A DNA stretch of 64,000 nucleotides from the NCBI RefSeq assembly GCF_001426885.1, contig NZ_LMFP01000027.1, positions 1 to 64,000 on the forward strand, given 5' to 3'. This DNA comes from Pelomonas sp. Root1444 (GTDB lineage: Bacteria > Pseudomonadota > Gammaproteobacteria > Burkholderiales > Burkholderiaceae_C). A program made the position numbers and the translations under genes. The notes beneath the pieces are model-generated. The model was not told the DNA's origin, ran no database searches, and worked only from the letters and a program-made list of their open reading frames with translations. The number at the start of each line of letters is the position of its first letter. Positions within the stretch are counted from its first letter, which is position 1. This document shows, piece after piece, positions 3,790-44,543 of the stretch.

Positions 3790-4361
3790 CCAAGAGCGCC
3801 GTCCTCAAGTCTTCTGCGCTCAATGCGCGTAAGGCGCTGCTGGACGGCGCGCCGGACATTGACACGTGGCCGGCGCTCCCTTTGGATTCAATCCCCGAAG
3901 AACACCAAGACGGCTACCTTGTCTTCAAGTTCGCGGTGACGCTGTGGGTCAAGCTGGTGCCCGAGCAGGTCATCCTCGACAAGCTGAAGACGCAGTACGA
4001 CGTCGTCCTGCGACAGGGGCGCATCGCCAAGCTCGTGCATCGCTGCTTGCGCAAGGACCCAGTCACCGGCGGCATCTGCGGGTTCCTTGGCTGCGTGCCT
4101 GGCCAGCACCTTCCAAACGACCGCGTGCCACTCGAAGCTCCAGTTGAAGGGCAGGCCCAGATAGACCGCACGATGGCGAGGGCGAGGGAACTGGGACGGC
4201 TCTTCGCAGCGCACCCAAAAATCGAGGCGACCATGATTCGCCTGGTCAAGACGAGGCGTCTACAGAAGGATGGTCCTCAGTTTCCGGCCCCTCAATGTCG
4301 GCGTCATTGTCGAGTGCTTCTATGCGCTGTGCCAGGACGCCGGCCTCGCCGACGCGGGTGA
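3786..4361 (+). CDS. N-terminal part of TnsB-like transposase (frameshifted)
   Basis: The frame opening at ATG 3786 overlaps the tnsA-like stop (ATGA) and reads well for about 160 residues, through ..MIRLVKTRRLQKD near 4270. It then enters an arginine/cysteine-rich stretch that looks like a wrong frame. The protein continues in the +1 frame from about 4270. Joined across one extra base, the product would be 707 residues, almost exactly the length of Tn7 TnsB (702). This segment corresponds to the DNA-binding N-terminus that recognises the transposon ends. The cause could be mutation, sequencing error, or less likely programmed frameshifting, as no slippery run is obvious. Confidence 0.6.
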   Translation: MTKSAVLKSSALNARKALLDGAPDIDTWPALPLDSIPEEHQDGYLVFKFAVTLWVKLVPEQVILDKLKTQYDVVLRQGRIAKLVHRCLRKDPVTGGICGFLGCVPGQHLPNDRVPLEAPVEGQAQIDRTMARARELGRLFAAHPKIEATMIRLVKTRRLQKDGPQFPAPQCRRHCRVLLCAVPGRRPRRRG

Positions 4362-5910
4362 ATGGCCCTTCTCAGCGGGCTGCAAGAAGAAGGGCTACGA
4401 AGCAATCCGCCGCTGGTATCACCAGAAGAAGTTCGACAACCCGTCTCAAGCGGCCGTGAATGAGTTGGGTGACGAGGTTGGCGACATCCTGGGCAAGGAC
4501 TACCGCCGCATCGGCATCCGGTCGCTCAACATCCCAATGAAGATGGCCTACGAGCGGGTGGAGATTGACGAGCACTACAGGGATGCCATGTTCTCGGCCG
4601 TCTGGCCGCGCGCGAACGGCGAGTACATAACGCTGCCGGCGTCGCGCGTGTGGGCGCTGGCGGCGATTGAGTGTGCCTGCCACGCGGTTCTCGGCACGCA
4701 TGTGGCGATGGGCGACCGCTATGACCGCAACGACGTCTCGCGCCTCATCCTGAACACGCTGAGTCCGCCGCCCCGGCCGACGAAGCTGATGTTTGATGAC
4801 CCTCAGTATCAGCTTGCTGATACTGCAAGGTATCCAGGCGAGATACCTGGGTTCGAGCGCAACAGCTATCAAACGCTGGCATGGGACGGTCACCGCACCC
4901 ACCTGAGTGCGCGGATGGTTGCTGACGCGATGGCAGTCATGCATTGCGAAGTGGCAGCTGAGCGCGTCGGCGACTCCACGGCCCGACCAAATATCGAGGG
5001 GTGGTTCAACACCATCACGCGCTTTGACCACATGCTGCCCAGTTCGACAGGCAGTCGTCCCGATAGCCCCGAGCGACGAGACCCGGAAGGAATCGCGCAA
5101 AGCCTGCGCATCTACATGCCGTTGGCCTACGAGTCGCTCGACGTAATCGGCCGGACTCACAACATCACGCCGTTGCATTGCCTTGACGGCTCTACGCCGC
5201 TCGAACGCCTGCAGGAACTGGCCAAGCAGGGGCGGGTGTTCCATAGCCCCATCGGCGAGCTGTCTGCCAGTCAGCTGCATCTGCTGCTTCCAAGAATGGA
5301 AGCGAAGCTAACGGAATATCGCGCGGTAGGTGACCGGCACGGGGTTCTGGGCGTTTATGCCGACTATGCGCGGTACACCAGTCGTGAGCTCAACGAGTGC
5401 AAGGAGCTGCGTTTTGCGACCGACAAGGGGTGCACGCTCTTCTTCAATGAGGATGCTCGAAGTGCTTGGCTAGTAACGAAGGCGCTGCCTGGCCGCCGCT
5501 TCCTTGTGACCATCGCTGGCCGCTGGTCCGAGATGCCGCACAACTACCTTTATAGGAGGTACATCTCCCGCCTTGGCGCCGTTCGCAAGGCGGAGTGGAT
5601 GGCCAGCTCGGCAAAGGTTGCCATTGGCGCAATGCGCGGGCTTGCGGCAGCAGCTACAGACGATGCAGCGGCGGCCCGAATGATGGCCGGCATCAACGCG
5701 TTTGCCGAGCGCTTTCAACGTGGGCAGGTCACGGCCGTCGATGTTTCTCAGACTGAGGTCGAAGACGCGCTTGCCTATTCACTCAGCGTTGAACCTGAGG
5801 ACGATATCGGCCCGCCGATGGCTGAAGAGCCGGTGTCGCCCACCGAAGTGGCAACTGTCTCTAGGGATGCGCTCGGCGGCGTGGACGACCCCTTCGGCCT
5901 GCGGAAATAG
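4270..5910 (+). CDS. TnsB-like DDE transposase, catalytic and C-terminal part
   Basis: A 546-residue open frame containing the retroviral-integrase-like core. Candidate catalytic acids are D100 (VEIDEHY), D206 (LAWDGHR) and E243 (RPNIEGWF), with 36 residues between the last two, as expected for a D,D-35-E enzyme. TnsB/TniA proteins bind terminal repeats and join 3' ends to target DNA together with TnsC. The ATG at 4270 is unlikely to be the natural start, since the N-terminal domain is in the overlapping frame just upstream; a stop at 4234-4236 blocks extension in this frame. The C-terminal 60 residues are acidic and proline-rich and may contact TnsC. The tnsC-like gene begins 8 nt after the stop. 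Confidence 0.8.
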   Translation: MVLSFRPLNVGVIVECFYALCQDAGLADAGEWPFSAGCKKKGYEAIRRWYHQKKFDNPSQAAVNELGDEVGDILGKDYRRIGIRSLNIPMKMAYERVEIDEHYRDAMFSAVWPRANGEYITLPASRVWALAAIECACHAVLGTHVAMGDRYDRNDVSRLILNTLSPPPRPTKLMFDDPQYQLADTARYPGEIPGFERNSYQTLAWDGHRTHLSARMVADAMAVMHCEVAAERVGDSTARPNIEGWFNTITRFDHMLPSSTGSRPDSPERRDPEGIAQSLRIYMPLAYESLDVIGRTHNITPLHCLDGSTPLERLQELAKQGRVFHSPIGELSASQLHLLLPRMEAKLTEYRAVGDRHGVLGVYADYARYTSRELNECKELRFATDKGCTLFFNEDARSAWLVTKALPGRRFLVTIAGRWSEMPHNYLYRRYISRLGAVRKAEWMASSAKVAIGAMRGLAAAATDDAAAARMMAGINAFAERFQRGQVTAVDVSQTEVEDALAYSLSVEPEDDIGPPMAEEPVSPTEVATVSRDALGGVDDPFGLRK

Positions 5911-5918
5911 AGGGGCTC

Positions 5919-6953
5919 ATGAAGGACATCCATCCCATCGAGCTCGAGCGTGGCTTCATCGCGAAGACCGTGCCTCTGACGGAGTTCGTCGAGGAGCTAC
6001 TCCAGTGCATCTCCGACCTGATGACCAGTCTCGTCGTTACCGGCGTGCAGCGCAACGGAAAGACCACGGCGATGGAGCACATCAAGGCGAAGATGGCGTC
6101 GAACCGGTCCTCCGCGTTCTTCAATGCGATGGCCTTGACTGTCGACCCGCGGAAGAGGGCTGGTAGAGAACTTGAGGCGGCCTTCTGGCGGACCTTCCTT
6201 ATCCGCACCGTGGAGGATGCCCGAATTCACTTTGAGAGCAACTACAAAGCCTTCCTGACGGCCATCAAGGTGGCCTGCGACCGGCTGGACACGCGGCACG
6301 TGGTCATCTGCGTAGACGATGCGCAGAAGCTGACGCCGCCCATGTTCGGCTACCTCAAGCAGCTGCACGAACAACTGCTCCCGGAGGGCTATCAGCCATT
6401 CTTTCTGCTGATTGCGCAGCCCGACATGCCGCTGCGCATGCATCAGCTGCAAGTCGACTCGATGCACGAGTACATCGACCGGTTCCTGACCAACGACTTC
6501 CGGTTTCGAGGCAATCGGCGCGAAGACCTGTCGTTCTTTCTGCGTCACTACGACACTGCGACCTGGCCGGCCGGCTCGGCAGTCACGTACACCCAGCATT
6601 ACGCGCCTCAACTGTGGCGCGCAGGCTGGCGGCTTGAGCATGAGGCGGGTCCGATGTGGTCTGCCTTCGAGACGCTCGCGAAACGCCTCGGGCTGAATAC
6701 CGCCGAGCTGGAAATCGGCACGAAGTTCTTGGTCAGCGCCTGCAAGGCATCACTGTTGGCTTTGCAGGGCGGGAAGGTCGAACGACTGAACCACGTGACC
6801 TGGCAGGCCGCTGCTGAGCGCAGCGGCTACTACAAGACCCGGCTGGTTGTCGGCGACCCTGAGGCCGCGGCTGAGGCTGCCCTGAAGGAGGTTCTCTGGC
6901 GCGAGCAAACCGCGAGGAACAAGGCCAGCAAGGGCAGGGCCACAGGTGCTTGA
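5919..6953 (+). CDS. TnsC/TniB-like AAA+ ATPase transposition regulator
   Basis: A 344-residue AAA+ protein. Walker A is GVQRNGKTT (residues 42-50) and Walker B is VVICVDDAQ (128-136), followed by a sensor-like ..LLIAQPD. The layout fits TnsC/TniB, the ATPase that links the target selector (TniQ/TnsD) to the transposase. A purine-rich sequence (GAGGGG) precedes the ATG at 5919. The stop overlaps the GTG start of the tniQ gene by 8 nt, so the two are probably translationally coupled. The C-terminal 25 residues are basic and alanine-rich. The gene appears intact, unlike its transposase neighbour. Confidence 0.85.
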   Translation: MKDIHPIELERGFIAKTVPLTEFVEELLQCISDLMTSLVVTGVQRNGKTTAMEHIKAKMASNRSSAFFNAMALTVDPRKRAGRELEAAFWRTFLIRTVEDARIHFESNYKAFLTAIKVACDRLDTRHVVICVDDAQKLTPPMFGYLKQLHEQLLPEGYQPFFLLIAQPDMPLRMHQLQVDSMHEYIDRFLTNDFRFRGNRREDLSFFLRHYDTATWPAGSAVTYTQHYAPQLWRAGWRLEHEAGPMWSAFETLAKRLGLNTAELEIGTKFLVSACKASLLALQGGKVERLNHVTWQAAAERSGYYKTRLVVGDPEAAAEAALKEVLWREQTARNKASKGRATGA

Positions 6954-8103
6954 CCGTTTCTGGTCACCCAAGTGGGACGCGCCTGGCGCATCTCTATGGG
7001 CGCTGGCCAACAAGCTGTCCCACGTCAGCACCATGCCGCTTAACGAGGTTCTTCGCGAGCTGGTTGATGCCGACCGCACACACCGCCTTCTTGCCTTCGC
7101 GCCCTCCCGGTCGAATGCGCGCCAGGCAGCAGAACTGTTTGGGAGGCGGAGCCCCGAGAGTCTGTTCACGGGTCTCGACGTGCAGCAGCCCGTCGACCGC
7201 AGCCGGATTCGGCTGAGTCTGGCTTGGTGCCCGACTTGCGCGGAGAGCTGGTATCACGCTCCCGTTTTCCAACTGGCGGGTCTCAGCAGGTGTCCTTGGC
7301 ATGGATGCGCTCTGAGGACCTGTTGCCCACATTGCTGGAGACCCGTGGACCCGCTCGGCACATCAGCCTGGACTTGCGATGGCTGCGGCAAGCACTTAGT
7401 CGATGCGCCGGCGGACGCCCTGAAGCAATTCCAAGCCGCACCGGGCCACGCCGGCATACCTCCAGACCTGCTGCCGGCGGACAGCTGGTTCACTTATCAG
7501 TTGACCCAGCAGGGCGACGGTTGGAAGTGCTACCGAGTCGAGGAGGGCGCTCCAGCGGAGGAGGGGAGTCGCGACCTTCTGACTTATTGGCACATGCTGC
7601 CGGCGCTCGAAGAAGCACTGACTCTTTGGGACACGGTGCTTCGAGACCATGCCCAATGCGCCCGCGAGGAGCCTAATCCCTACCCGGCGCCATACAGCGT
7701 CATTGAGTTCAAGTGCCCTGTCGCATCGGCCGCGCTGGTGGCATTCGCCAGCCTGGGTATCACTGCGACGCCGATGGGCGATTGGCAGGTGCTGCATCCG
7801 AAGGTGCGGCCGGTGGACATGAGGCCGCTCTACAAGCTGCCGCCTCGGGCCAGGGCCGCTTACGCCCGAGCATTGACGCGTTCCGCGCTTCACCAAGCGC
7901 TGCAGGTGTTCGGGCGCGTTGCGATGGTCGGTCGATGGCGCACGCGTTGGGACGAGCCCGATGCGAAGAACGCGGCGGACGTGCTGGCGTTCCAGACGCA
8001 AGACGCGGTCGGCGTGCTTTCCACGGTCTCTGTGCGCGCCATCAAAGCATCTGTCGCTATCGCCGCCGAGAGCTGCGTGCGATGTCACGACGCCGGTTTG
8101 TAA
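6946..8103 (+). CDS. tniQ: TniQ/TnsD-family target-selection protein
   Basis: A 385-residue protein with the TniQ signature: an N-terminal segment (residues 10-75) leading to a cysteine/histidine zinc-finger block. Visible ligand candidates are C95-x2-C98, C116-x2-H119, C127-x2-C130 and C144-x2-C147. TniQ/TnsD proteins choose the insertion site and recruit TnsC. At 385 residues it is longer than the short CRISPR-associated TniQ type relative to its domain and shorter than Tn7 TnsD, suggesting recognition of a fixed DNA site through the C-terminal part. No cas genes or CRISPR array are nearby. GTG start, coupled to tnsC. It is the last gene of the operon; the element end lies about 250-340 bp downstream. 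Confidence 0.8.
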   Translation: MLDRFWSPKWDAPGASLWALANKLSHVSTMPLNEVLRELVDADRTHRLLAFAPSRSNARQAAELFGRRSPESLFTGLDVQQPVDRSRIRLSLAWCPTCAESWYHAPVFQLAGLSRCPWHGCALRTCCPHCWRPVDPLGTSAWTCDGCGKHLVDAPADALKQFQAAPGHAGIPPDLLPADSWFTYQLTQQGDGWKCYRVEEGAPAEEGSRDLLTYWHMLPALEEALTLWDTVLRDHAQCAREEPNPYPAPYSVIEFKCPVASAALVAFASLGITATPMGDWQVLHPKVRPVDMRPLYKLPPRARAAYARALTRSALHQALQVFGRVAMVGRWRTRWDEPDAKNAADVLAFQTQDAVGVLSTVSVRAIKASVAIAAESCVRCHDAGL

Positions 8104-8355
8104 CGGGGTGTGTCGCGCGTTACGCCGTAAAAGCGTGACGTCTGGCTTTCAGTAAAAGGTTGGCTGCAAGGTTCAGCCGGCAGGCCACACCATCGCTAGC
8201 GGCGGATACACCGTACCAGCTGTTTGTTGGAGCGGATAGCGCATCCGCAGCGCGCAAACTGCCGGGGTGTTTTGTGCGCTCTTCATCGGCGGCCGGTTCG
8301 GCTCGACGTTAAGGCGCCCCCGTCGAATTTTCAGCGTAGGGCTCCGGAGCCCGTT

Positions 8356-8440
8356 CCACCCCAAAACGGCTTGCGCTCGCAAGCGCCACCCAAAGATGGA
8401 CTGTGTCGTTCGGCGCCACCCGATTCGGGATTGCGTCCGT
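8356..8440 (+). repeat. Three direct repeats, probable TnsB-binding sites at a Tn7-like end
   Basis: Copies start at 8356, 8386 and 8416, an exact 30-bp period. Each reads CCACCC, six variable bases, GG, one base, then YTGYG (TTGCG, CTGTG, TTGCG). Several spaced transposase sites in one orientation near the terminus are characteristic of Tn7-like elements. No matching inverted copies (GGGTGG...) were found by eye between 1 and 3150, so the other end is probably left of this window. Confidence 0.65.
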
Positions 8441-8583
8441 TTCAGCTTCCGCAGCCGGTGGGGCCCTCACAAGGAATCAAGGACTTAGGCCGGGTTCTTC
8501 TAGGTTCGTTTTTTCTGTAGTCCCAGTTCAGGGTGGTCAAGCTACAGCACTGGCTTACGTTCAGTGGCTTGTGATTTTACATA

Positions 8584-8607
8584 ATGCACATTGTCAGCAA
8601 TGTGCAT
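8584..8607 (-). terminator. Perfect inverted repeat after the TonB receptor gene
   Basis: ATGCACATTG, a 4-nt loop (TCAG), then CAATGTGCAT: a perfect 10-bp stem starting 10 nt beyond the stop of the leftward TonB-receptor gene. On the minus strand it is followed by TATGTAAAAT rather than a clean T-run, so it may be a weak terminator or an mRNA-stabilising hairpin. An attachment-site role for the nearby transposon is also possible. Confidence 0.4.
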
Positions 8608-8616
8608 CGGCCCCGC

Positions 8617-11373
8617 CTAGAATGCGACCCGCACGCCAATGTTGAAACGGCGGCCCACGTCCTCCAGGGTCAGGAACCTGGACTCGTCGAGCGCGTATTC
8701 GTGCATGCGCTCGTTGTTCAGGTTGATCGCATCGGCATACAGCGACACCGAGGGCGTGACGTTGTAGCGCACGCTGGCATCGGCCTGCCCATAGGCCGCA
8801 CGCGTGCGTGGCAGCGTGCTGCCACCGCCGCAGTCGACCGAGAAATGGTTTCTCCAGTTGTAGCTCAGGCGCGCCTGGAAGCGGCTGTTCTCATAGAACA
8901 CGGAGCCGTTGTACGACTGCTTGGACAGGCCCGGATAGCCGCAGCTCGGTGCGCCGCCTTCGCGGGTCGCGGTGGCGTCGACATAGGTGTAGTTGGCCGC
9001 CACGCCAAAGCCCTGCAGCAGGCTGCCGCTGGCATCGAAGGCATATTGACCGGCCAGCTCCAGTCCCTTGATCTTGCCTTGCTGCCCGTTGCGGACGCGC
9101 GTGTCGTGGGCGATCTCGGGGAACTGCGGCAACTGGACGTCGACCAGCCGGGTTTCCAGGAAGTCGGTGACCTTCTTGTGGAAGACGGCGGCGCTGAGGT
9201 AGTTGGTCTTGGACAGATACCACTCGAGCGACACGTCCAGGTTGGTCGAGCGCATCGGCTTGAGATACGGGTTGCCGCCGCCGGTCTGCACGTCGCCGAA
9301 GCGGCCGCCATACCAGTTGTTGACGCCCATCTGGTTCAGCGTCGGGCGCGTCAGCGTCTTGGACGCCGCCAGGCGCAGCATCAGATCGCGGGTCAAGTCC
9401 AGCTTCAAGTTGGCCGACGGCAGCAGGTTCTTGTAGCTGTTCTCGACCGTGTTCACGGTGCTCGGGCCGTAGGTAAGGATGTAGGTGGTGTCGTTGGGGC
9501 TCTTGACCGCCGACTGCAGCACCCGGCTGATGCCGATGGACGTGGAGTCCACATGCACATAGCGCACGCCCACGTTGCCGGCCCATCCCTGCCCTTCCCA
9601 TTTGCTGTCCACGAAGATGCTGGAGACCTTTTCCTTGACACCCCACATCGACGGCTTGGTGTAGTCGATCGCCATCGGCCCGTTCGGGTATTTCGTCTTG
9701 TCGCCGTACAGCGCCGGGTCATTCGATTGCGCGATCAATGCCGGCTGGTTCAGGTAAGCCATGTAGGCGTAGGGATCGAACCGCAGGAACGCCGACGGCA
9801 TGGCGCCTTCGACACCGAAGATGTTCTTCAGCGGGCTGACCGTGAACAGCGACGCCGGCAACGAGACGTGATAGCCGCTGAACGCATTCCAGGAATCGCT
9901 GTTCCACTGCGTGCGGTCCACCTCGCGGCGCGAGCTGGCCAGGCCGACCTGCAGGCCCTTGAAATACCCGATCTCGTGGTCCCACGACAGATTGACGCGG
10001 CCTTCCTTGAGGTCGTCGCCGTTGTGGATCTGGCCATACGCGACCGCATGGGCGCGGACCGCAGCGGGGTCGGTGAGGCTGTCGCCGAACTTGATCGTCG
10101 GCGTGCCGTCGAAGGTCAGCACGTCGCCGTTCTTGGGCACCATGCCGGCGACGATCCACATGTCAGGCGACTTCGAGGTCGTGCGGGAGGTTGACAGGTC
10201 GCCTTCCAGCGTCCATTCCGGCGCGACGGCCCACTTGGCATTGGCGCCGAAGGCCTTGGTGGTCGACAGGCGGTCGCCGGCCTTGACGATCATGTCGTTG
10301 GAATTCGCCTCACCCAACAGCTTGCCCGGCCCGGCGATCCCCGGGTTGTTGGCGAAGAAGGTCGAGCCCGGCCGCAGGAAACTGGTGATCTGGTCGTTGG
10401 CGTTGTACTGCACGCCGAGTTGGGTCGGGTTGTTCCAGTCGCTGACCGCAATGACGTCGTTCTTCTGGTCCAGCCGCGAATACAGCCCGTCGACGGACAG
10501 CTGCAGCGCCTTGGTGGGGTTGAATTGAACCGTGCCCGCGGCGACCAGCCGCTTTCGGCGCTCGTTTTCTTCCTGGAAGCCGAAGCTCTGCGGGATGTAC
10601 AGCTTCTTCACCGTCACGTCCGCCATCGTCAGTCCGGTGGAATTGAGGTTGCCGTTGATGAGGTTCACGTCCTTGTAGTTCCAGGCGTCGTTGACGGCCT
10701 TGGTCTGCTTGGAGGCACGGTCGGTGTACGACAGCGACCCGCTGACACCCAGCGTGCGGTCCTCGTTGGCGAACGAGTACATCGCACTCGCATTCGGCGT
10801 CTTCTTCTTGGAGTTCGAGTCGTAGGAGCCGGACAGGTTGACGACCGCCGAATGGCCTTTGCGGCCCGCCAACGGGCGCGCGGTCTGGATATCCACCGTG
10901 GAGCCGATGCCGCCTTCCGGCAGGAACGGTTGCGCCGTCTTGTAAACCAGCGCCTTGGAAATCAGGTCCGACGACAGCAGGTCGAATGAAAACTCGCGGC
11001 CGCCGGTATCGCTGGTCATGGTCCGGCCATTCACCAGGACGTTGTTGAACTCTGGCCCCAGGCCGCGGACGGAAATGTACCGGCCCTCCCCGTTGTTGCG
11101 CTGGATCTGGACGCCGGTGACGCGCTGCAGGGATTCGGCGATATTGGTGTCAGGGAATTTACCAGCGTCCTCGGCAGATACCGCATCGACGACGCCGTCC
11201 TGCATCCGCTTGGTCGCGACGGAGGATTCAAGTGACGCACGGATACCCGTGACGACGACCTTTTCCAAATCCTGCCTGGGCGCCGCCGCATCCTGCGCTG
11301 CGGCCGGTGCGGCCAACCAGATTTGGCCGATCAAGCCAGCCACCACAGTCTTGACGAAAATATCAGTCCGCAT
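8617..11373 (-). CDS. TonB-dependent outer-membrane receptor
   Basis: A 918-residue receptor. Residues 1-27 form a signal peptide ending APAAAQ. A TonB-box-like region (EKVVVTG) is followed by a plug domain with VSAEDAGKFPDTNIAESLQR and ISVRGLGPEFN, the pattern of the large oligosaccharide-type TonB receptors common in Xanthomonas and Massilia/Duganella relatives. The rest is the beta-barrel, ending with an aromatic C-terminus (VRVAF). Such receptors import oligosaccharides into the periplasm. The neighbours (GH2, GH35, MFS, LysR) point to galactose-containing substrates. The gene is separated from the upstream LysR gene by 314 bp, so it is probably a separate unit. Start chosen at ATG 11373. 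Confidence 0.9.
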   Translation of the reverse strand: MRTDIFVKTVVAGLIGQIWLAAPAAAQDAAAPRQDLEKVVVTGIRASLESSVATKRMQDGVVDAVSAEDAGKFPDTNIAESLQRVTGVQIQRNNGEGRYISVRGLGPEFNNVLVNGRTMTSDTGGREFSFDLLSSDLISKALVYKTAQPFLPEGGIGSTVDIQTARPLAGRKGHSAVVNLSGSYDSNSKKKTPNASAMYSFANEDRTLGVSGSLSYTDRASKQTKAVNDAWNYKDVNLINGNLNSTGLTMADVTVKKLYIPQSFGFQEENERRKRLVAAGTVQFNPTKALQLSVDGLYSRLDQKNDVIAVSDWNNPTQLGVQYNANDQITSFLRPGSTFFANNPGIAGPGKLLGEANSNDMIVKAGDRLSTTKAFGANAKWAVAPEWTLEGDLSTSRTTSKSPDMWIVAGMVPKNGDVLTFDGTPTIKFGDSLTDPAAVRAHAVAYGQIHNGDDLKEGRVNLSWDHEIGYFKGLQVGLASSRREVDRTQWNSDSWNAFSGYHVSLPASLFTVSPLKNIFGVEGAMPSAFLRFDPYAYMAYLNQPALIAQSNDPALYGDKTKYPNGPMAIDYTKPSMWGVKEKVSSIFVDSKWEGQGWAGNVGVRYVHVDSTSIGISRVLQSAVKSPNDTTYILTYGPSTVNTVENSYKNLLPSANLKLDLTRDLMLRLAASKTLTRPTLNQMGVNNWYGGRFGDVQTGGGNPYLKPMRSTNLDVSLEWYLSKTNYLSAAVFHKKVTDFLETRLVDVQLPQFPEIAHDTRVRNGQQGKIKGLELAGQYAFDASGSLLQGFGVAANYTYVDATATREGGAPSCGYPGLSKQSYNGSVFYENSRFQARLSYNWRNHFSVDCGGGSTLPRTRAAYGQADASVRYNVTPSVSLYADAINLNNERMHEYALDESRFLTLEDVGRRFNIGVRVAF

Positions 11374-36632: not shown

Positions 36633-38875
<2,243 letters not shown>

Positions 38876-38879
<4 letters not shown>

Positions 38880-39030
38880 AGGCGCGCCGCATCGGCCCTT
38901 TCGAAGTCTCGGCTATCGGCCTGGGCTGCATGAACTTGAGCCATGCCTATGGCACGCCACCGCCACGTGAGGTCGCGGCGGCCGTGTTGAACGGCGCGCT
39001 GGATGGCGGCATCACGCTGTTCGACACGGC
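38876..39030 (+). pseudogene. Aldo/keto reductase, 5' fragment split by insertion
   Basis: Residues 1-52 read as a normal aldo/keto reductase N-terminus: GPFEVSAIGLGCMNLSHAYG and DGGITLFDTAA. The frame then runs into the inserted element at 39031 and stops at 39094. Removing the insertion and one copy of the 5-bp duplication joins this piece to 42102 in frame, giving LFDTAALYGFGANE, the expected family sequence. The gene was therefore the translationally coupled fifth gene of the lig operon. Its role there, perhaps reducing an aromatic or ring-cleavage aldehyde, is unknown. Confidence 0.9.
39026..39030. repeat. Target-site duplication, left copy (ACGGC)
   Basis: ACGGC immediately precedes the left TGCAT end of the inserted element and is repeated at 42097-42101 after the right end. 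Keeping one copy restores the aldo/keto reductase frame. Confidence 0.8.
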
Positions 39031-39094
39031 TGCATATTCCAGCGAACGTGAGCAGCCAGTTCAGCACGATGAGCACGCGATCCAGCGTGCATGA
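39031..39094. repeat. Left terminal repeats of the inserted element
   Basis: The outer segment begins TGCATATTCCAGCG and contains ACGTGAGCA at about 39046-39054. Units starting GAGCA/GATCA follow about every 21-22 bp (GAGCAGCCAGTTCAGC, GAGCACGCGATCCAGC, then GATCACCGGCACGC). Confidence 0.65.
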
Positions 39095-39151
39095 TCACCG
39101 GCACGCGCCAGCGCGCGGCCAAGTCCGCGCCGGCTCCCGCAAGGCCAAGCC

Positions 39152-39346
39152 GTGACGCCACGCTGCGGCACCCTGTCGGCGCAGCCGACACACTGGACGC
39201 CCGCGCAGGCGTTGGCACTCTTCGAGTGCCTGCAGCCCCTGAGCGAGCAGCACTGGACCGTTTACGGATCCTCGGATCCAGCCCGACGGTTCACCGGGTC
39301 TCAATCTCCAGGACGCCCACCGAGTAGGCGGGTAGCGTCAGCGTGA
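39152..39346 (+). CDS. Short unidentified frame inside the element
   Basis: A GTG-initiated frame whose early part reads WTPAQALALFECLQPLSEQHW, resembling small helical proteins that accompany some IS operons. From 39291 it runs antisense through the end of the GH51 gene, so its C-terminus is probably not genuine. Most likely a remnant of the element's original gene content. Low confidence. Confidence 0.25.
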   Translation: MTPRCGTLSAQPTHWTPAQALALFECLQPLSEQHWTVYGSSDPARRFTGSQSPGRPPSRRVASA

Positions 39347-41288
39347 ATTCGCGCGCAATGCCCTTGAGGGGCTGGGTCTTCGGCGCGACGCGGGTCGGCT
39401 CGTCCAGCGAGTTGGCTGCATCGGGGTTGGCCGAGCTCATCACGGTCAGCTGGGCCGTGGGTGCAAGCTTGTTCACGCCGGTCAGCTTCACGCGCACCGG
39501 CTGATCGGTGGCGGCGCGGCTGGCGAACTTGATCTGGATGCGGCCCGGCTTGCCGGCCTCGTCCTTGCGCGTCACCACCCAGTGCAGGGCCGGGAAGGTC
39601 TTGCCGTTGTCACTGGTCCAGTTCGGGATGTCGCGCCCGGAGGACTCCAGCACCACGTCGCCCAGGTGGCTGGAGAACATGGTCTGCACGTAGTACGACG
39701 GCGTGCCATAGGACTTCAGCGCGTCGTAGCCGATCAGGTTGGTGGCCCATTGCAGGGACCGGTCGCGGCTGTGTCCCGACACCCGGCTGAGATTGGCCAG
39801 CAGCGGTGCGTAGGCCGCCATCTGTACCACGTCGGCATTGCGCTCCAGGCTGGCCAGGTAGGCGGCGTCGGCAATGGCGGCCCTCATGTTCGGCATGGGC
39901 CAGCCCTGGTGGGTGGCCCACTCGCCGACGAACACCTTCGGGTCGGTACGCGGGCGCTTGTCGTAGTCGGTCAGGTGCTCGTACATCTGCGCCTCGCCCC
40001 AGGCGTAGGTGTGGTCGTCTATCATCTCGGGGCGCTGTGAAGGCGTCGCGCTGGCCGCCATCGTCGAAATGAGCGTCAGTTGCGGGTACCTGGCCTTGAT
40101 CGCCTTGTGGAAGATCGAGAAGCGCTTGTCGTAGGAGCCCGACTTGTCGAAGACGTCCTCGTTGCCGATCTCGACGTGACTCATCTTGAAGGGCTCGGGG
40201 TGGCCGTCCCTGGCGCGTTGCGCGCCCCATTTGGTGTCAGCGCCGCCGATGATGTATTCGATCTGGTCCAAGGCTTCCTGCACGAAGGGCGCCAGGTCTT
40301 CTTCAGAGGACAGCCGCTCGCCATTGAGGGCGTAGCCCGCGAACACATCGAGCAGGGGCTCCATGCCGAGGTCTTCGCACCACAGCAGGAATTCCAACAT
40401 GCCCATGCCGTCGGTGGACCAATAGTTCCAGGGGCTGCGGTGGCCGGGCCGCTGCGCCGGGTCGCCGATGGTCTTCTTCCACTCGAAGCGCTGCCCGAAG
40501 GTGTCGCCCTCGACGTAGTTGCCGCCAGGAAAGCGCAGGAACTTCGGCTTCAGGCCCGCCATCAGCTCCATCAGGTCCGGGCGCAGCCCGTTCGGGCGGT
40601 TCTTGTAGGTGGGACCGAACACCGACACCTGTTGCAGCCAGAGCTTGCCCGGCCGGCTGGCGGTGAGCGTGAAGACGTTGTCCTTGGACGGCACCAGCTC
40701 ACTGCCGGTGCGCAGCGTGATCTGGAACTTCTTCCAGTCGCGCCCGACGCCGTCCACCTTGCCGGAGACGAGCGAGGCGCCACCAGCCTTGACGAGCGAG
40801 GCCAGCAGTGGGCCGATTTCGCCTTCAGCCTTGGCATAGAAGGACACGGTGTAGCTGGTGTCGGGTTTGAGGCCGATGCCCCAGTAGCCACCGTTGCGGA
40901 TGCCCGCCGGCTGCTCGGGCGATGCGCTTTTGAGAGTCAGCGCCAGGCTCAAGTCCAGCGCGTCGTTGAGCTTGTTGTTCCTGTCCAGGGCCAGCTCGGC
41001 CGCACCGACGGCGTTCCAGTACACCGGCTCCTCAGCCTGGTAGGCGTAACCCGCTTCGCCCTTGAAGCTGCGGTTGCGGATCAGTTCACCGTAAAGGCCG
41101 CCTTCGTAGGCAAAGTTGATCTCTTCGGTCATGAGACCGTACATGCGGGGGTTGATGCGGGTCTTGACCCGGTCGGCCGTGATATGGATCTCGGGCTGCG
41201 ATGCAACCCCGGTCGACTGAGCATTCGCCGGCAGTGCAAGGAACGCACTGGCCAGCGTGCACAGGGACGTCAGATTGATGTTTCTCAT
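39291..41288 (-). CDS. Secreted GH51 alpha-L-arabinofuranosidase
   Basis: A 665-residue enzyme. Signal peptide residues 1-24 (ALPANAQ). A carbohydrate-binding-like sandwich follows (about 70-225), then the GH51 TIM barrel with acid/base E377 in VEIGNEDVF and nucleophile E456 in VFVGEWATHQG, and a C-terminal beta-sandwich. It removes arabinofuranosyl side groups from arabinan, arabinoxylan or arabinogalactan. The gene lies wholly within the inserted element and looks intact. Start chosen at ATG 41288 for the signal peptide; the open frame extends 29 codons upstream without one. The gene is antisense to the interrupted lig operon. Confidence 0.9.
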   Translation of the reverse strand: MRNINLTSLCTLASAFLALPANAQSTGVASQPEIHITADRVKTRINPRMYGLMTEEINFAYEGGLYGELIRNRSFKGEAGYAYQAEEPVYWNAVGAAELALDRNNKLNDALDLSLALTLKSASPEQPAGIRNGGYWGIGLKPDTSYTVSFYAKAEGEIGPLLASLVKAGGASLVSGKVDGVGRDWKKFQITLRTGSELVPSKDNVFTLTASRPGKLWLQQVSVFGPTYKNRPNGLRPDLMELMAGLKPKFLRFPGGNYVEGDTFGQRFEWKKTIGDPAQRPGHRSPWNYWSTDGMGMLEFLLWCEDLGMEPLLDVFAGYALNGERLSSEEDLAPFVQEALDQIEYIIGGADTKWGAQRARDGHPEPFKMSHVEIGNEDVFDKSGSYDKRFSIFHKAIKARYPQLTLISTMAASATPSQRPEMIDDHTYAWGEAQMYEHLTDYDKRPRTDPKVFVGEWATHQGWPMPNMRAAIADAAYLASLERNADVVQMAAYAPLLANLSRVSGHSRDRSLQWATNLIGYDALKSYGTPSYYVQTMFSSHLGDVVLESSGRDIPNWTSDNGKTFPALHWVVTRKDEAGKPGRIQIKFASRAATDQPVRVKLTGVNKLAPTAQLTVMSSANPDAANSLDEPTRVAPKTQPLKGIAREFTLTLPAYSVGVLEIETR

Positions 41289-41618
41289 GGAAGTAGTCAA
41301 ACAAGGAATCGGCGTTACGACAGGTGGCATGGAGGTACAAGAGGCGGACCGCGGCGGGCTAGGTCCGCAGCCCAACGACGGCTAAGCGCCCGAGCGCTTC
41401 GGCACACGCCGGCATCGTCGGATGCAGCAGCGTGCGGCCGAACCAGAAGTCTTCGCCAAGCGTTTACAGGCGCCAATGCAGGCGCAGCGTTGCATGTTGG
41501 GTGGGCAGATGAAGGAGGACACTGCTGCGGATTGACCAAATTGCGGTCTTGCCACTTTGCCACATAGCAACGTTGGTATTACCACATTGTGGTCCCGCAG
41601 CCGGTCCGACGGCACCAC
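41289..41618. other. 330-bp spacer upstream of the GH51 gene
   Basis: No gene is supported. It presumably holds the leftward GH51 promoter. Near its end, TGGTATTACCA (41574-41584) is a short palindrome of the type bound by GntR/FadR-like regulators, and ACCAAATTGCGGT lies at about 41535. Neither matches the LacI operators of the pectin region closely. Confidence 0.4.
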
Positions 41619-41759
41619 AACTGCGTCATCGTGATGACGGGCTACTCCGAGCAGATCCGGCTGGCCATGGCTCAAGGCTTCACGGTGCTGGCCAAGCCGA
41701 CCTCCGCGGAGCGCTTGGCCAGCGTGCTGCAGGATGCGCTCTCCACAAAAAAACGCTGA
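41619..41759 (+). pseudogene. C-terminal fragment of a response-regulator receiver domain
   Basis: The frame reads NCVIVMTGYSEQIRLAMAQG, then FTVLAKPTSAERLASVLQDA and a stop at 41757-41759. This is the end of a receiver (REC) domain: the TGY strand, then the invariant lysine-proline in LAKP and the last helix. Short spacing to the stop suggests the tail of a hybrid histidine kinase. Nothing upstream encodes the rest, so it is a relic trapped in the element. Confidence 0.75.
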
Positions 41760-42029
41760 GCGGCTGTAATTTCCTCCGGACGCTGCACACGGTGGACGAT
41801 GGCGCCAGGCCTCAGAGGCCAGTCAAGGAGCGCCGGAGCTCGAAGGCAAAGCGGTCATAGGCGCCGGCACACCGCGGGCGACCGCTTGCCGCTGCAGCCG
41901 ACGTTCAACTGACGAACTGTGAATGGCTCTCGCCAGCCTGAAGCAGCCAGCATCTCCGCACCCGGCGCTGGACCGAGTGGTCAAGTCACCGGACACGCTG
42001 CCCTGCGCGACACCTCCGGACAAGGTGCT

Positions 42030-42096
42030 CGTCAGGCGCCGGATTCCGTGCTCAGAAGACGCTGGACCTGGTGCTCACGTCGCGTCGAAAAATGCA
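42030..42096. repeat. Right terminal repeats of the inserted element
   Basis: Read on the minus strand from 42096: TGCATTTTTCGACGCG, then ACGTGAGCACCAGGTCCAGC. Further units start GAGCACGGAATCCGGC and GAGCACCTTGTCCGGA at 23-bp steps. It is inverted relative to the left-end series. Confidence 0.65.
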
Positions 42097-42101
42097 ACGG
42101 C
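42097..42101. repeat. Target-site duplication, right copy (ACGGC)
   Basis: Second copy of ACGGC, directly after the ATGCA right end of the inserted element. It restores the reductase frame when joined to 39030. Confidence 0.8.
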
Positions 42102-42423
42102 GGCCCTGTACGGCTTCGGTGCCAACGAGGCGCTGCTGGGCGACGTGCTGGTGCACCACCGCGAAGAACGCATCGTGCTGACGAGCAAATGCGGCATGCA
42201 CGGCGTGAACGGCCAGCGCGTCATGCTGCACAGGGGCGAGCACATCATTCCGATTCCGGGCACGTCCAAACCCGAGCACTTGCGGGAACTGATCGCTGCA
42301 CCTCAACTCGAACTGGATACGCCGACGTTGAAGCGGCTCGACGCGCTGATCAACCGCCACACCGTCAGCGGCGCACGCTACGGCGCGGCCACGCAGGCCG
42401 AGATCGACACCGAGGAGTTCTGA
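42102..42423 (+). pseudogene. Aldo/keto reductase, 3' fragment with internal deletion
   Basis: It continues the reductase with AALYGFGANEALLG and TSKCGMHGVNGQRV (up to about 42222). It then jumps directly to LHRGEHIIPIPGTSKPEHLR and the C-terminus ending EIDTEEF. In intact family members about 170 residues lie between these blocks, so the barrel centre is missing, in frame. The gene thus has two independent lesions: the insertion and this deletion. An ATG at 41923 opens a longer frame through the element end but cannot make a functional enzyme. Confidence 0.85.
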
Positions 42424-42464
42424 CCACCGCGGCGGACAGCAGGCCATGGTTATCCTGCGCACCC

Positions 42465-42917
42465 ATGAGCTCGACCCGCGAGAAGTCCCCTCCCCTCGAC
42501 CAGTCCCGCCTGGCCCACACGCTGGGCTATGCCATCGCGCGCGCGGCCGTCACCACCAACCAGCTGTTCAGCCAGGGCGTGGGCGAGCCGCTGGGCGTGC
42601 GGCCGGTGGAGTTCACGCTGCTGCAGCTGATCTTCTCGAACCGCAACACCACGCAGAAGCGCCTGTGCGACCTGCTGCGCGTGCCGGCGCCGCAGATGAC
42701 GCTCATCCTCGACCGCCTGCAGGAGCGCGGCTGGGTCGAGCGCGAACGCGACGCCAACGACCGGCGTGCGCTGCACCTGCGGCTCACGGCCGAAGGCGAG
42801 CGCCTGGCCGAGGAAAGCCTCGTGGCGCTGCAGGTGGCCGAGCAGGCGCTGGACCGCGTGCTGTCCAGCGGCGAGCGGCTGCTGCTGCAGGAGCTGCTCG
42901 CCAAGGTCGCACGCTGA
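42465..42917 (+). CDS. MarR-family transcriptional regulator
   Basis: A 150-residue winged-helix regulator. The core reads VRPVEFTLLQLIF, TQKRLCDLLRVPAPQMTLIL and the wing ERDANDRRALHLRLTAEGE, with the DxR motif. MarR proteins such as CouR and FerC respond to hydroxycinnamoyl-CoA thioesters, so a link to the ferulate genes at 56.7-63 kb is possible; the gene lies 14 kb away and no site was identified. It follows the reductase remnant by 41 bp. The 156 bp after it, up to the convergent GH27 gene, hold a GTCCCCCGAGGGGAC inverted repeat but no clear terminator. Confidence 0.85.
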   Translation: MSSTREKSPPLDQSRLAHTLGYAIARAAVTTNQLFSQGVGEPLGVRPVEFTLLQLIFSNRNTTQKRLCDLLRVPAPQMTLILDRLQERGWVERERDANDRRALHLRLTAEGERLAEESLVALQVAEQALDRVLSSGERLLLQELLAKVAR

Positions 42918-43073: not shown

Positions 43074-44423
43074 TCAGCTGAGCCGGTAGAGCCCCGCACC
43101 ATGCGACGGCAGCTGCTGGGCAAAGCGGCCCGACGCCGTGTCGAGAGGCTTGCGCGCCCACAGGTCGCGCACCTGGCGAACACCGTCCAGCCCCAGGTCG
43201 CGCAGCGCGATGCCGACCTCGCGGGCCTTGTCCGTCGGGTTGAACAGCGCGACATAGCGGCCCTTGCCGTCGGCTGGCTTCGCCGACCAGATGCGCACGA
43301 AGTCCTCGACGAAATGCGGCCGGTTGTCCGAGCTCGCCTGGTCCACCGCCAGCACCTCGGGGTTGGTCAGCAGCGCCAGCGTCGGCTCGTCCAGGTGGCG
43401 CAGGTCGCCGCCCATGATCAGCGGCGAGCGCGTGATGGCCCACAGCGTCATCAGCGTGCGCTGCTCGTCGGGGGTGAAGCGGGTGTTGCGCTCACCCAGC
43501 GCCAGGCGGCCCAGCGGCAGCATGTCCGGGTCCGGCCAGGCGCCCGGCTTGCGCCAGGGGTTCCAGTTCTCCAGCCGCGTGAACTGGGCGTCCAGCATGG
43601 GCCATTCGTCCCAGAAGTCGTCGGAGATGCGCCACATCTGCGCGAACTGGCGCACATGCTCGGCGCGGCTGACGGGCGTCTCGCCCGGCGACAGGCTGAG
43701 CGCCATCGGCCGCTTGGTGCGCTGGATGGCGCGGTGGGCGGCCTCGATCTCCGGCGCGTGGGCGTCGTAGGGCCGGCTCATGTCGTCCATCTTGATGAAA
43801 TCGACGCCCCAGGAGGCGTAAAGCGCGAACACGCTGTCGTAGTAGGCCTGCGCGCCGGGCTTGCGCATGTCAACGCCGTACATGTCGGGGTTCCAAGTGC
43901 AGACGCTGGTGGTGTCGGCAATGTCGGCGGCGCGATAGGGCGTGCCCAGGATGGGCAGATTGCGCTTCACAGCCAGGCGCGGGATGCCGCGCATCAGGTG
44001 GATGCCGAACTTCAGGCCCATCGCATGCACGTCGGCTGCCAACGGCGCGAAGCCCTTGCCGCCGGCGCTGGACGGGAAACGGTTCTCGGCCGGGATCAGC
44101 CGGCCGTAGCCGTCCATTGCCGGCTCGGGGTTGGCGGCGTAGGTGTAGCTCGACGCCCCGGGCTCGTACCACTGGATGTCGATGGTGAAGATGTTGTAGC
44201 CGGCCGGCAGCAGCTTGTCGGCCATGATGCGTGCCGTCTCGCGCGCCTGGGCCTCGTTGATGGTGGTGGCGAAGCTGTTCCAGCTGTTCCAGCCCATCGG
44301 CGGCGTGGGGGCCAACAGGCCCTTGGCGGGCGCTGTGGCGACGGTAGTCGCCTGGGCAGGCAGCGTGGACGCGGCGATGCCGGTGAGGCCGGCGCCGATC
44401 AGGCCCCTTCGATTCAATGCCAT
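43074..44423 (-). CDS. Exported GH27 alpha-galactosidase
   Basis: A 449-residue enzyme. The N-terminus ALNRRGLIGAGLTGIAAS has a twin-arginine-like signal, so export by Tat or Sec is likely. The GH27 barrel begins PPMGWNSWNSF. The nucleophile is in VDFIKMDDM (D213) and the acid/base in WRISDDFWDEW (D268/D269). A C-terminal beta-sandwich follows. It releases alpha-galactose from galactomannan or raffinose-type sugars, or other alpha-linked caps on plant glycans. Start chosen at ATG 44423. It is 120 nt downstream of the esterase gene on the same strand, and could be separately transcribed. Confidence 0.9.
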   Translation of the reverse strand: MALNRRGLIGAGLTGIAASTLPAQATTVATAPAKGLLAPTPPMGWNSWNSFATTINEAQARETARIMADKLLPAGYNIFTIDIQWYEPGASSYTYAANPEPAMDGYGRLIPAENRFPSSAGGKGFAPLAADVHAMGLKFGIHLMRGIPRLAVKRNLPILGTPYRAADIADTTSVCTWNPDMYGVDMRKPGAQAYYDSVFALYASWGVDFIKMDDMSRPYDAHAPEIEAAHRAIQRTKRPMALSLSPGETPVSRAEHVRQFAQMWRISDDFWDEWPMLDAQFTRLENWNPWRKPGAWPDPDMLPLGRLALGERNTRFTPDEQRTLMTLWAITRSPLIMGGDLRHLDEPTLALLTNPEVLAVDQASSDNRPHFVEDFVRIWSAKPADGKGRYVALFNPTDKAREVGIALRDLGLDGVRQVRDLWARKPLDTASGRFAQQLPSHGAGLYRLS

Positions 44424-44543
44424 GGATGCTCTCTGGTCTCGTTTGTCGTGGCGCGGGGTGTACGGCATTCCACGAGAACAATCCAATGGCGATTTCCTCT
44501 CAAGTCATACCGGTTTCGACATGGCTTGGGCGGCGCCAGCCGG

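Follow-up and report, generated by a model that had tools for sequence, protein, structure and literature searches.

A transposase-less cassette with IS21-type ends carries an arabinofuranosidase gene in Pelomonas

Mobile insertion cassettes (MICs), such as those of Bacillus cereus and the qnrS2 mic of Aeromonas plasmids, are transposase-less units moved by an insertion sequence (IS) in trans; as far as the available text of these two papers goes, neither is tied to IS21 (PMC3281130, PMC4444841). The transporter IS (tIS) is described as an IS derivative with passenger genes (PMC9330008), and MITEPye1, a miniature inverted-repeat transposable element (MITE) attributed to IS1182-family transposition, is presented as non-autonomous, with movement presumed to occur in trans (PMC11578231). 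In IS21 itself, IstA is reported to require that each end have two complete direct repeats (PMC10122671). Here we analyse a 3,066-bp element within a 64,000-nucleotide stretch of Pelomonas sp. Root1444 (contig NZ_LMFP01000027.1, positions 1 to 64,000; hereafter the window), which holds a GH51 alpha-L-arabinofuranosidase gene (Table 1). Our results confirm that the element is a cassette which has moved recently, with ends of IS21 type and without detectable transposase. We give a probability of about 0.87 to its being a non-autonomous cassette of the MIC kind, in which IS21-type ends surround GH51 in place of istA/istB and the whole is moved in trans.

The element, its second copy and its insertion site

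The element starts with TGCATATT and finishes with AATGCA (sequence reading, window 38400-42700). The TG...CA tips, the flanking 5-bp duplication ACGGC and the three GAGCA-type repeats per end were all part of the original prediction and are all in place; the GAGCA/GATCA boxes are spaced by 21-23 bp, and those on the right lie on the opposite strand. The left end scores 80.5 bits against a left-end profile that was built partly from the window. An inverted motif shared by the two ends, ACGTGAGCA, had also been put forward: it is present at 39046-39054 (+) and 42072-42080 (-), yet it is non-significant alone (2 found versus 0.74 expected, 2 being reached in 16/100 shuffles), and we dropped it as evidence by itself. 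That the ends are beyond chance follows from their recurrence at further sites, not from this motif alone.

Pelomonas sp. Root1217 (G002) carries the same element: of 2,910 bp, 3 are mismatched (99.9%), and the right end is identical. This copy lies in other surroundings with its own duplication, ACGATC, so that the unit is found at two unrelated sites in two species, and the shared segment ends at the two tips, save for 1 and 3 flanking bases. The GH51 proteins are 100% identical over 665 aa. Since orthologous flank in the two genomes is only 88% identical, the near-identical element points to recent movement as a unit, and the second species supports the earlier claim that the element spreads a carbohydrate-active gene. 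The Root1217 copy is split near window position 41940, with its halves on two contigs. At the split these contigs continue into a tyrosine recombinase (L074 4003-4800) and an IS91-type transposase (L028 272-1450), which may together be one inserted element. Root1217 has two more GH51 matches, at 77% and 47%; no IS21-type ends were found in the 18 kb surrounding the 77% match.

The predicted intact GH51 gene was borne out. A solved structure, MgGH51, matches the protein at E 5.3e-99 with the GNED and GEW/GEY stretches aligned, which we take to have a catalytic role, and an N-terminus resembling a secretion signal, as judged by eye, suggests that the enzyme is probably secreted. Within the window genome this is the sole GH51 match at E <= 1e-20, a threshold at which 5 of 20 genus genomes have any match. 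The rest of the element is noncoding or debris, as had been noticed at the outset; one piece of debris resembles the tail of a response-regulator receiver domain by eye and gave no Pfam match. The predicted lack of istA/istB also stood: tblastn at E <= 0.01 with seven IstA and seven IstB queries found no remnant in the window element, nor in six elements with related ends presented below (L032, L033, L034, L037, L039 and candidate L038), and it did find the control L086. By these queries the element has no IstA/IstB of its own; for other transposase types the check covered the list of open reading frames and Pfam searches of chosen frames, and none was detected.

The insertion interrupts an aldo/keto reductase gene. 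Joined across the element, the flanks read FDT-AALYG, and the printed frames of four relatives (G012, G016, G002, G003) read through as FDTAALYG. DNA alignment across the site showed no insert in 7/7 relatives (L125-L131; G010 partial), these being the ones with substantial matches to the upstream flank, which itself matches 18/20 genus genomes at E <= 0.001, many merely by short pieces. A reductase split also in relatives that lack the ends would have spoken against the element; it is uninterrupted in these relatives. The window reductase, moreover, is without about 0.5 kb of its middle compared with the four orthologues. This is a second lesion, so the gene decayed further, before or after the element inserted. 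The prediction that excision restores the reductase frame stands for the junction, but excision would not repair the gene, which is doubly broken. Just outside the element lies a GH27 alpha-galactosidase-type gene (PF16499, window 43077-44486, minus strand), so GH51 landed near another plant-sugar gene.

Table 1. Features of the element and its surroundings in the window.
Feature	Coordinates	Strand	Remarks
Whole element, IS21-type ends, no transposase detected	39031..42096	.	3,066 bp; same unit elsewhere in Pelomonas sp. Root1217
Target duplication ACGGC (5 bp), left copy	39026..39030	.	
Target duplication ACGGC (5 bp), right copy	42097..42101	.	
Left end	39031..39134	+	Boxes GAGCA 39050-39054, GAGCA 39071-39075, GATCA 39093-39097
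Right end, 164-bp dispersed repeat	41933..42096	+	Boxes (read TGCTC) 42026-42030, 42049-42053, 42072-42076
GH51 alpha-L-arabinofuranosidase cargo, 665 aa	39291..41288	-	Intact, from ATG at 41288; PF06964 and PF22848 over cut-off
Gene debris, resembling tail of response-regulator receiver domain	41625..41759	+	By eye
Interrupted aldo/keto reductase, 5' part (one duplication copy included)	38876..39030	+	PF00248 E 7.1e-4, under Pfam cut-off; orthologues
Interrupted aldo/keto reductase, 3' part	42102..42423	+	PF00248 over cut-off; about 0.5 kb missing internally
GFO/IDH/MocA oxidoreductase, host operon, upstream of reductase	37926..38879	+	Pfam

Related ends and other cargo in the genus

Counting the window's own, the 164-bp right end matches at 18 places, spread over 11/60 genomes. 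All of these belong to the genus (11/20 genomes, against 0/40 outside), and 15 of the 18 reach the terminal base. Eight of the 18 have a left partner: the window, Root1217, L032 (1.9 kb), L033 (4.1 kb), L034 (5.5 kb), L037 (about 6 kb, right tip missing), L039 and L041, the last two being a 501-bp short version, the same insertion in two genomes. Both tips can be read at six distinct sites, and all six are duplicated (ACGGC, ACGATC, CCCATC, AACGGG, GAGAACG and AGCGA); among mismatched flank pairs, taken as a control, 0/30 reach 5 bp and 1/30 reaches 4. The lengths of 5, 6, 6, 6, 7 and 5 bp fit the IS21 range, which we take to be 4-8 bp. When left ends were sought by duplication for nine right ends with none on their own stretch (one of them Root1217's), only L038 was plausible. 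This 507-bp candidate (CCAGC) was chosen by the duplication criterion itself and is therefore uncounted.

The left end of L033 matches 10/20 genus genomes, and the profile adds one in G012. Besides the element, the window's own genome holds another right end (C11, 91%) and part of a left end (C25). Ends that stand alone or are eroded occur several times in the genus. Some matches are doubtful: the right-end match in G015 (E 6.7e-4), one of the 11 genomes above, stops short of the tip and has a profile E of 0.14 (0.0092 in a smaller set); the left-end match in G008, one of the 10, covers query bases 75-120 only, with no profile match there; and one in C8 lies, by eye, in an ABC-transporter-like coding sequence and is absent from the profile matches. 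The first two were not counted as solid and the third was rejected. A pattern scan of genome contigs gave seven stretches, of which L120 and L123 are true ends; the others (L117, L118, L119, L121, L122) have weak (best E 0.0049) or no profile matches and no IstA/IstB, and we take them as chance.

The tip pattern has two matches in 349 family genomes: the window and G298, which belongs to a different genus of the family and has a left end, but in which the search for a right end found none. A tandem-box pattern had no match in 399 genomes of the order, a search that covers tightly repeated ATTCC-type ends only and would miss the window's ends. Among 72,556 plasmid records, neither end of the family had a match.

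The original prediction had proposed looking for more copies of the ends, flanking different cargo. Such copies were found, the cargo comprising arsenic genes, a GNAT gene and an unknown frame. L034 encodes ArsA, ArsD, two LMWPc proteins, a MIP channel and an FMN reductase; we read the LMWPc proteins as ArsC-like and the FMN reductase as ArsH-like. L033 holds the GNAT gene and a frame that is IS110-like by eye, a label for which PADLOC gave no meaningful match. L032 has a 378-aa frame without match in Pfam or PADLOC. L037 spans SMR, LysE, GST, FMN-binding, GntR-aminotransferase and LysR genes, its extent being uncertain since it has no testable duplication. Some solo right ends adjoin genes of possible interest, by adjacency only. 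In L030 (G012, 3986-9149) a gene similar to MkoA of the Mokosh defence system lies just inside the right end, no left end being found within the 9 kb examined, and the right ends of L031 and L035 adjoin YnfA- and MerR-like genes, with a metal-ATPase-like gene in L031 (by eye).

Three side observations concern these ends. A further repeat, about 150-220 bp long, lies inside them (L116 7193-7413; L031; L006), shared by left and right sides in inward orientation. L040 and L042 (G004, G013) share one right end together with 30 bp of its right flank, probably through inheritance of an old insertion. A solo right end in the window genome (L006 4621-7998) follows a WD40/caspase-like gene (by eye) at about 0.2 kb, and no left end was found for it.

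Source of the transposase and competing explanations

The ends resemble those of istAB-bearing elements; a failure to match any transposable element, with no second copy anywhere, would have counted against the original prediction. From 40 plasmid matches listed, out of 1,869 records matched, we took eight IS21 elements, the plasmid relatives including annotations to the ISBmu3, ISRme9 and ISPsy14 families; all eight have repeated boxes near their ends (by eye), the box sequences differing. One picked from these eight, an istAB element of Bradyrhizobium barranii (L141), lies between GTGTG and GTGTG and has GTGAGCA boxes. Its right tip is identical to the window left tip at 24/28 positions and its left tip to the window right tip at 20/28, while the best of 20,000 random window 28-mers compared with four IS21 tips reached 18. 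Family IS21 tips (L164, L173 and, with one change, L169) read TGCGTATTCCGGCGAACGTGACCG, near the window's TGCATATTCCAGCGAACGTGAGCA. Within the genus, an IS21 element of G001 with istA and istB frames has tips TGCGTATTCCA, common to it and to the left ends of relatives, followed by repeats of about 22 bp with a GCGGACA box.

We hypothesize that the IstA transposase and IstB helper would come from an IS21 element located at some other place in the same cell, most likely one with GTGAGCA boxes. IstA would recognise the terminal repeats, of which each end has three resembling binding sites; with three boxes per end, the layout satisfies the two-repeat need of IstA. The two ends would be brought together and the unit pasted into a new site, leaving duplications of 5-7 bp, with the GH51 cargo travelling passively.

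Several points weigh against this reading. The transposase partner is hypothetical: neither the IS21 loci examined in the genus nor 30 loci from the family search yielded an istAB element with GTGAGCA boxes. For ten of the 18 matches to the right end, the profile shows no left end nearby, and the Root1217 copy is a union of two contig halves that we infer to belong together. Most genomes are drafts, in which repeated ISs may be missing. An IS21 transposase model matches 19/20 genus genomes at E <= 0.001, exceeds its own cut-off in 11/20, and does not exceed it in the window genome. The search for a driver covered 25 over-cut-off matches (23 regions examined, 18 upstream regions read), some stretches stopping at contig ends. 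Compared with our end profiles, the genus IS21 loci (L078-L113) gave matches only in L088, of the GCGGACA type (E 0.34), and L101 (E 0.55). The driver may be absent from our sample, may have been lost, or may escape notice in draft assemblies. A driver of lower specificity is also possible, for instance the GCGGACA-type IS21 present in the genus; it would have to ignore the box.

Alternatively, the ends, and the transposase that moves them, could be those of another TG..CA family whose sites are repeated (Tn7/TnsB, Tn5053/TniA or Mu-like). Tn7 and Mu likewise have several sites for their transposase at each end. IstA has been likened to both in the text available (PMC10122671). Tip and box nevertheless resemble istAB elements base by base. 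The duplications here vary between 5 and 7 bp, whereas those of Tn7 and Mu are fixed at 5 bp. On the comparison with istAB elements and on these lengths we regard this alternative as unlikely. Somewhat harder still to sustain is the idea of a one-off relic, a decayed IS21 that lost istAB and gained GH51 by chance, with no cassette behaviour. Gene debris beside GH51 and the solo or eroded ends of the genus are what such decay would leave; however, the unit moved recently, as Root1217 attests, and three other duplicated elements with two tips hold different genes, a fourth being the 501-bp short version. A third possibility is that the unit was spread by homologous recombination or as part of a larger mobile element, and the step between species does call for a vehicle; neither end occurs among the plasmid records. 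It deserves hardly any credence given that the shared segment stops at the tips, 1 and 3 flanking bases aside, and each site has its own duplication.

Returning to the cassette moved in trans, a broader proposal can be made, tentatively and with less than even confidence: IS21-type ends in Pelomonas/Roseateles could serve as genus-wide portable brackets that repeatedly capture niche genes (hemicellulose, arsenic and perhaps also other metals and anti-phage defence) with neither integrase nor resident transposase, driven by roaming IstA/IstB, for the most part not retained by the hosts.

Significance and comparison with known systems

As the element shows, an enzyme acting on plant polymers can be handed between related bacteria in the form of a single mobile gene, and annotation relying on transposase genes would miss such an element. 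Should IS21 ends prove to be general carriers of cargo in trans, scans for paired ends would reveal hidden mobile metabolic or resistance genes. The element also offers a test case for how IstA handles multi-repeat ends that bracket foreign DNA. We found no IS21-type cassette of this sort in the open-access literature, subscription papers and ISfinder lying outside that search.

With the IS21 family the window element shares TG..CA tips, repeated boxes at both ends and a short target duplication, as well as the GTGAGCA box of the Bradyrhizobium element; unlike that family, it has no istA/istB and carries an unrelated gene. The passenger gene recalls a tIS. By common usage, however, a tIS retains its own transposase, and none was detected here. 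Like a MITE it is non-autonomous, and its 501-bp relative (L039/L041) is MITE-like, whereas MITEs are short and non-coding and the window element, at 3,066 bp, contains an intact 665-aa gene. The closest likeness is to MICs, in IS-type ends, coding cargo, no detected transposase and presence at more than one genomic location (the window and Root1217, the latter on two contigs). The differences lie in the multi-repeat IS21-type ends and in a cargo of glycoside hydrolase, arsenic or other genes. The MIC idea itself is known; what is new here is the IS21-type ends and the unusual cargo.

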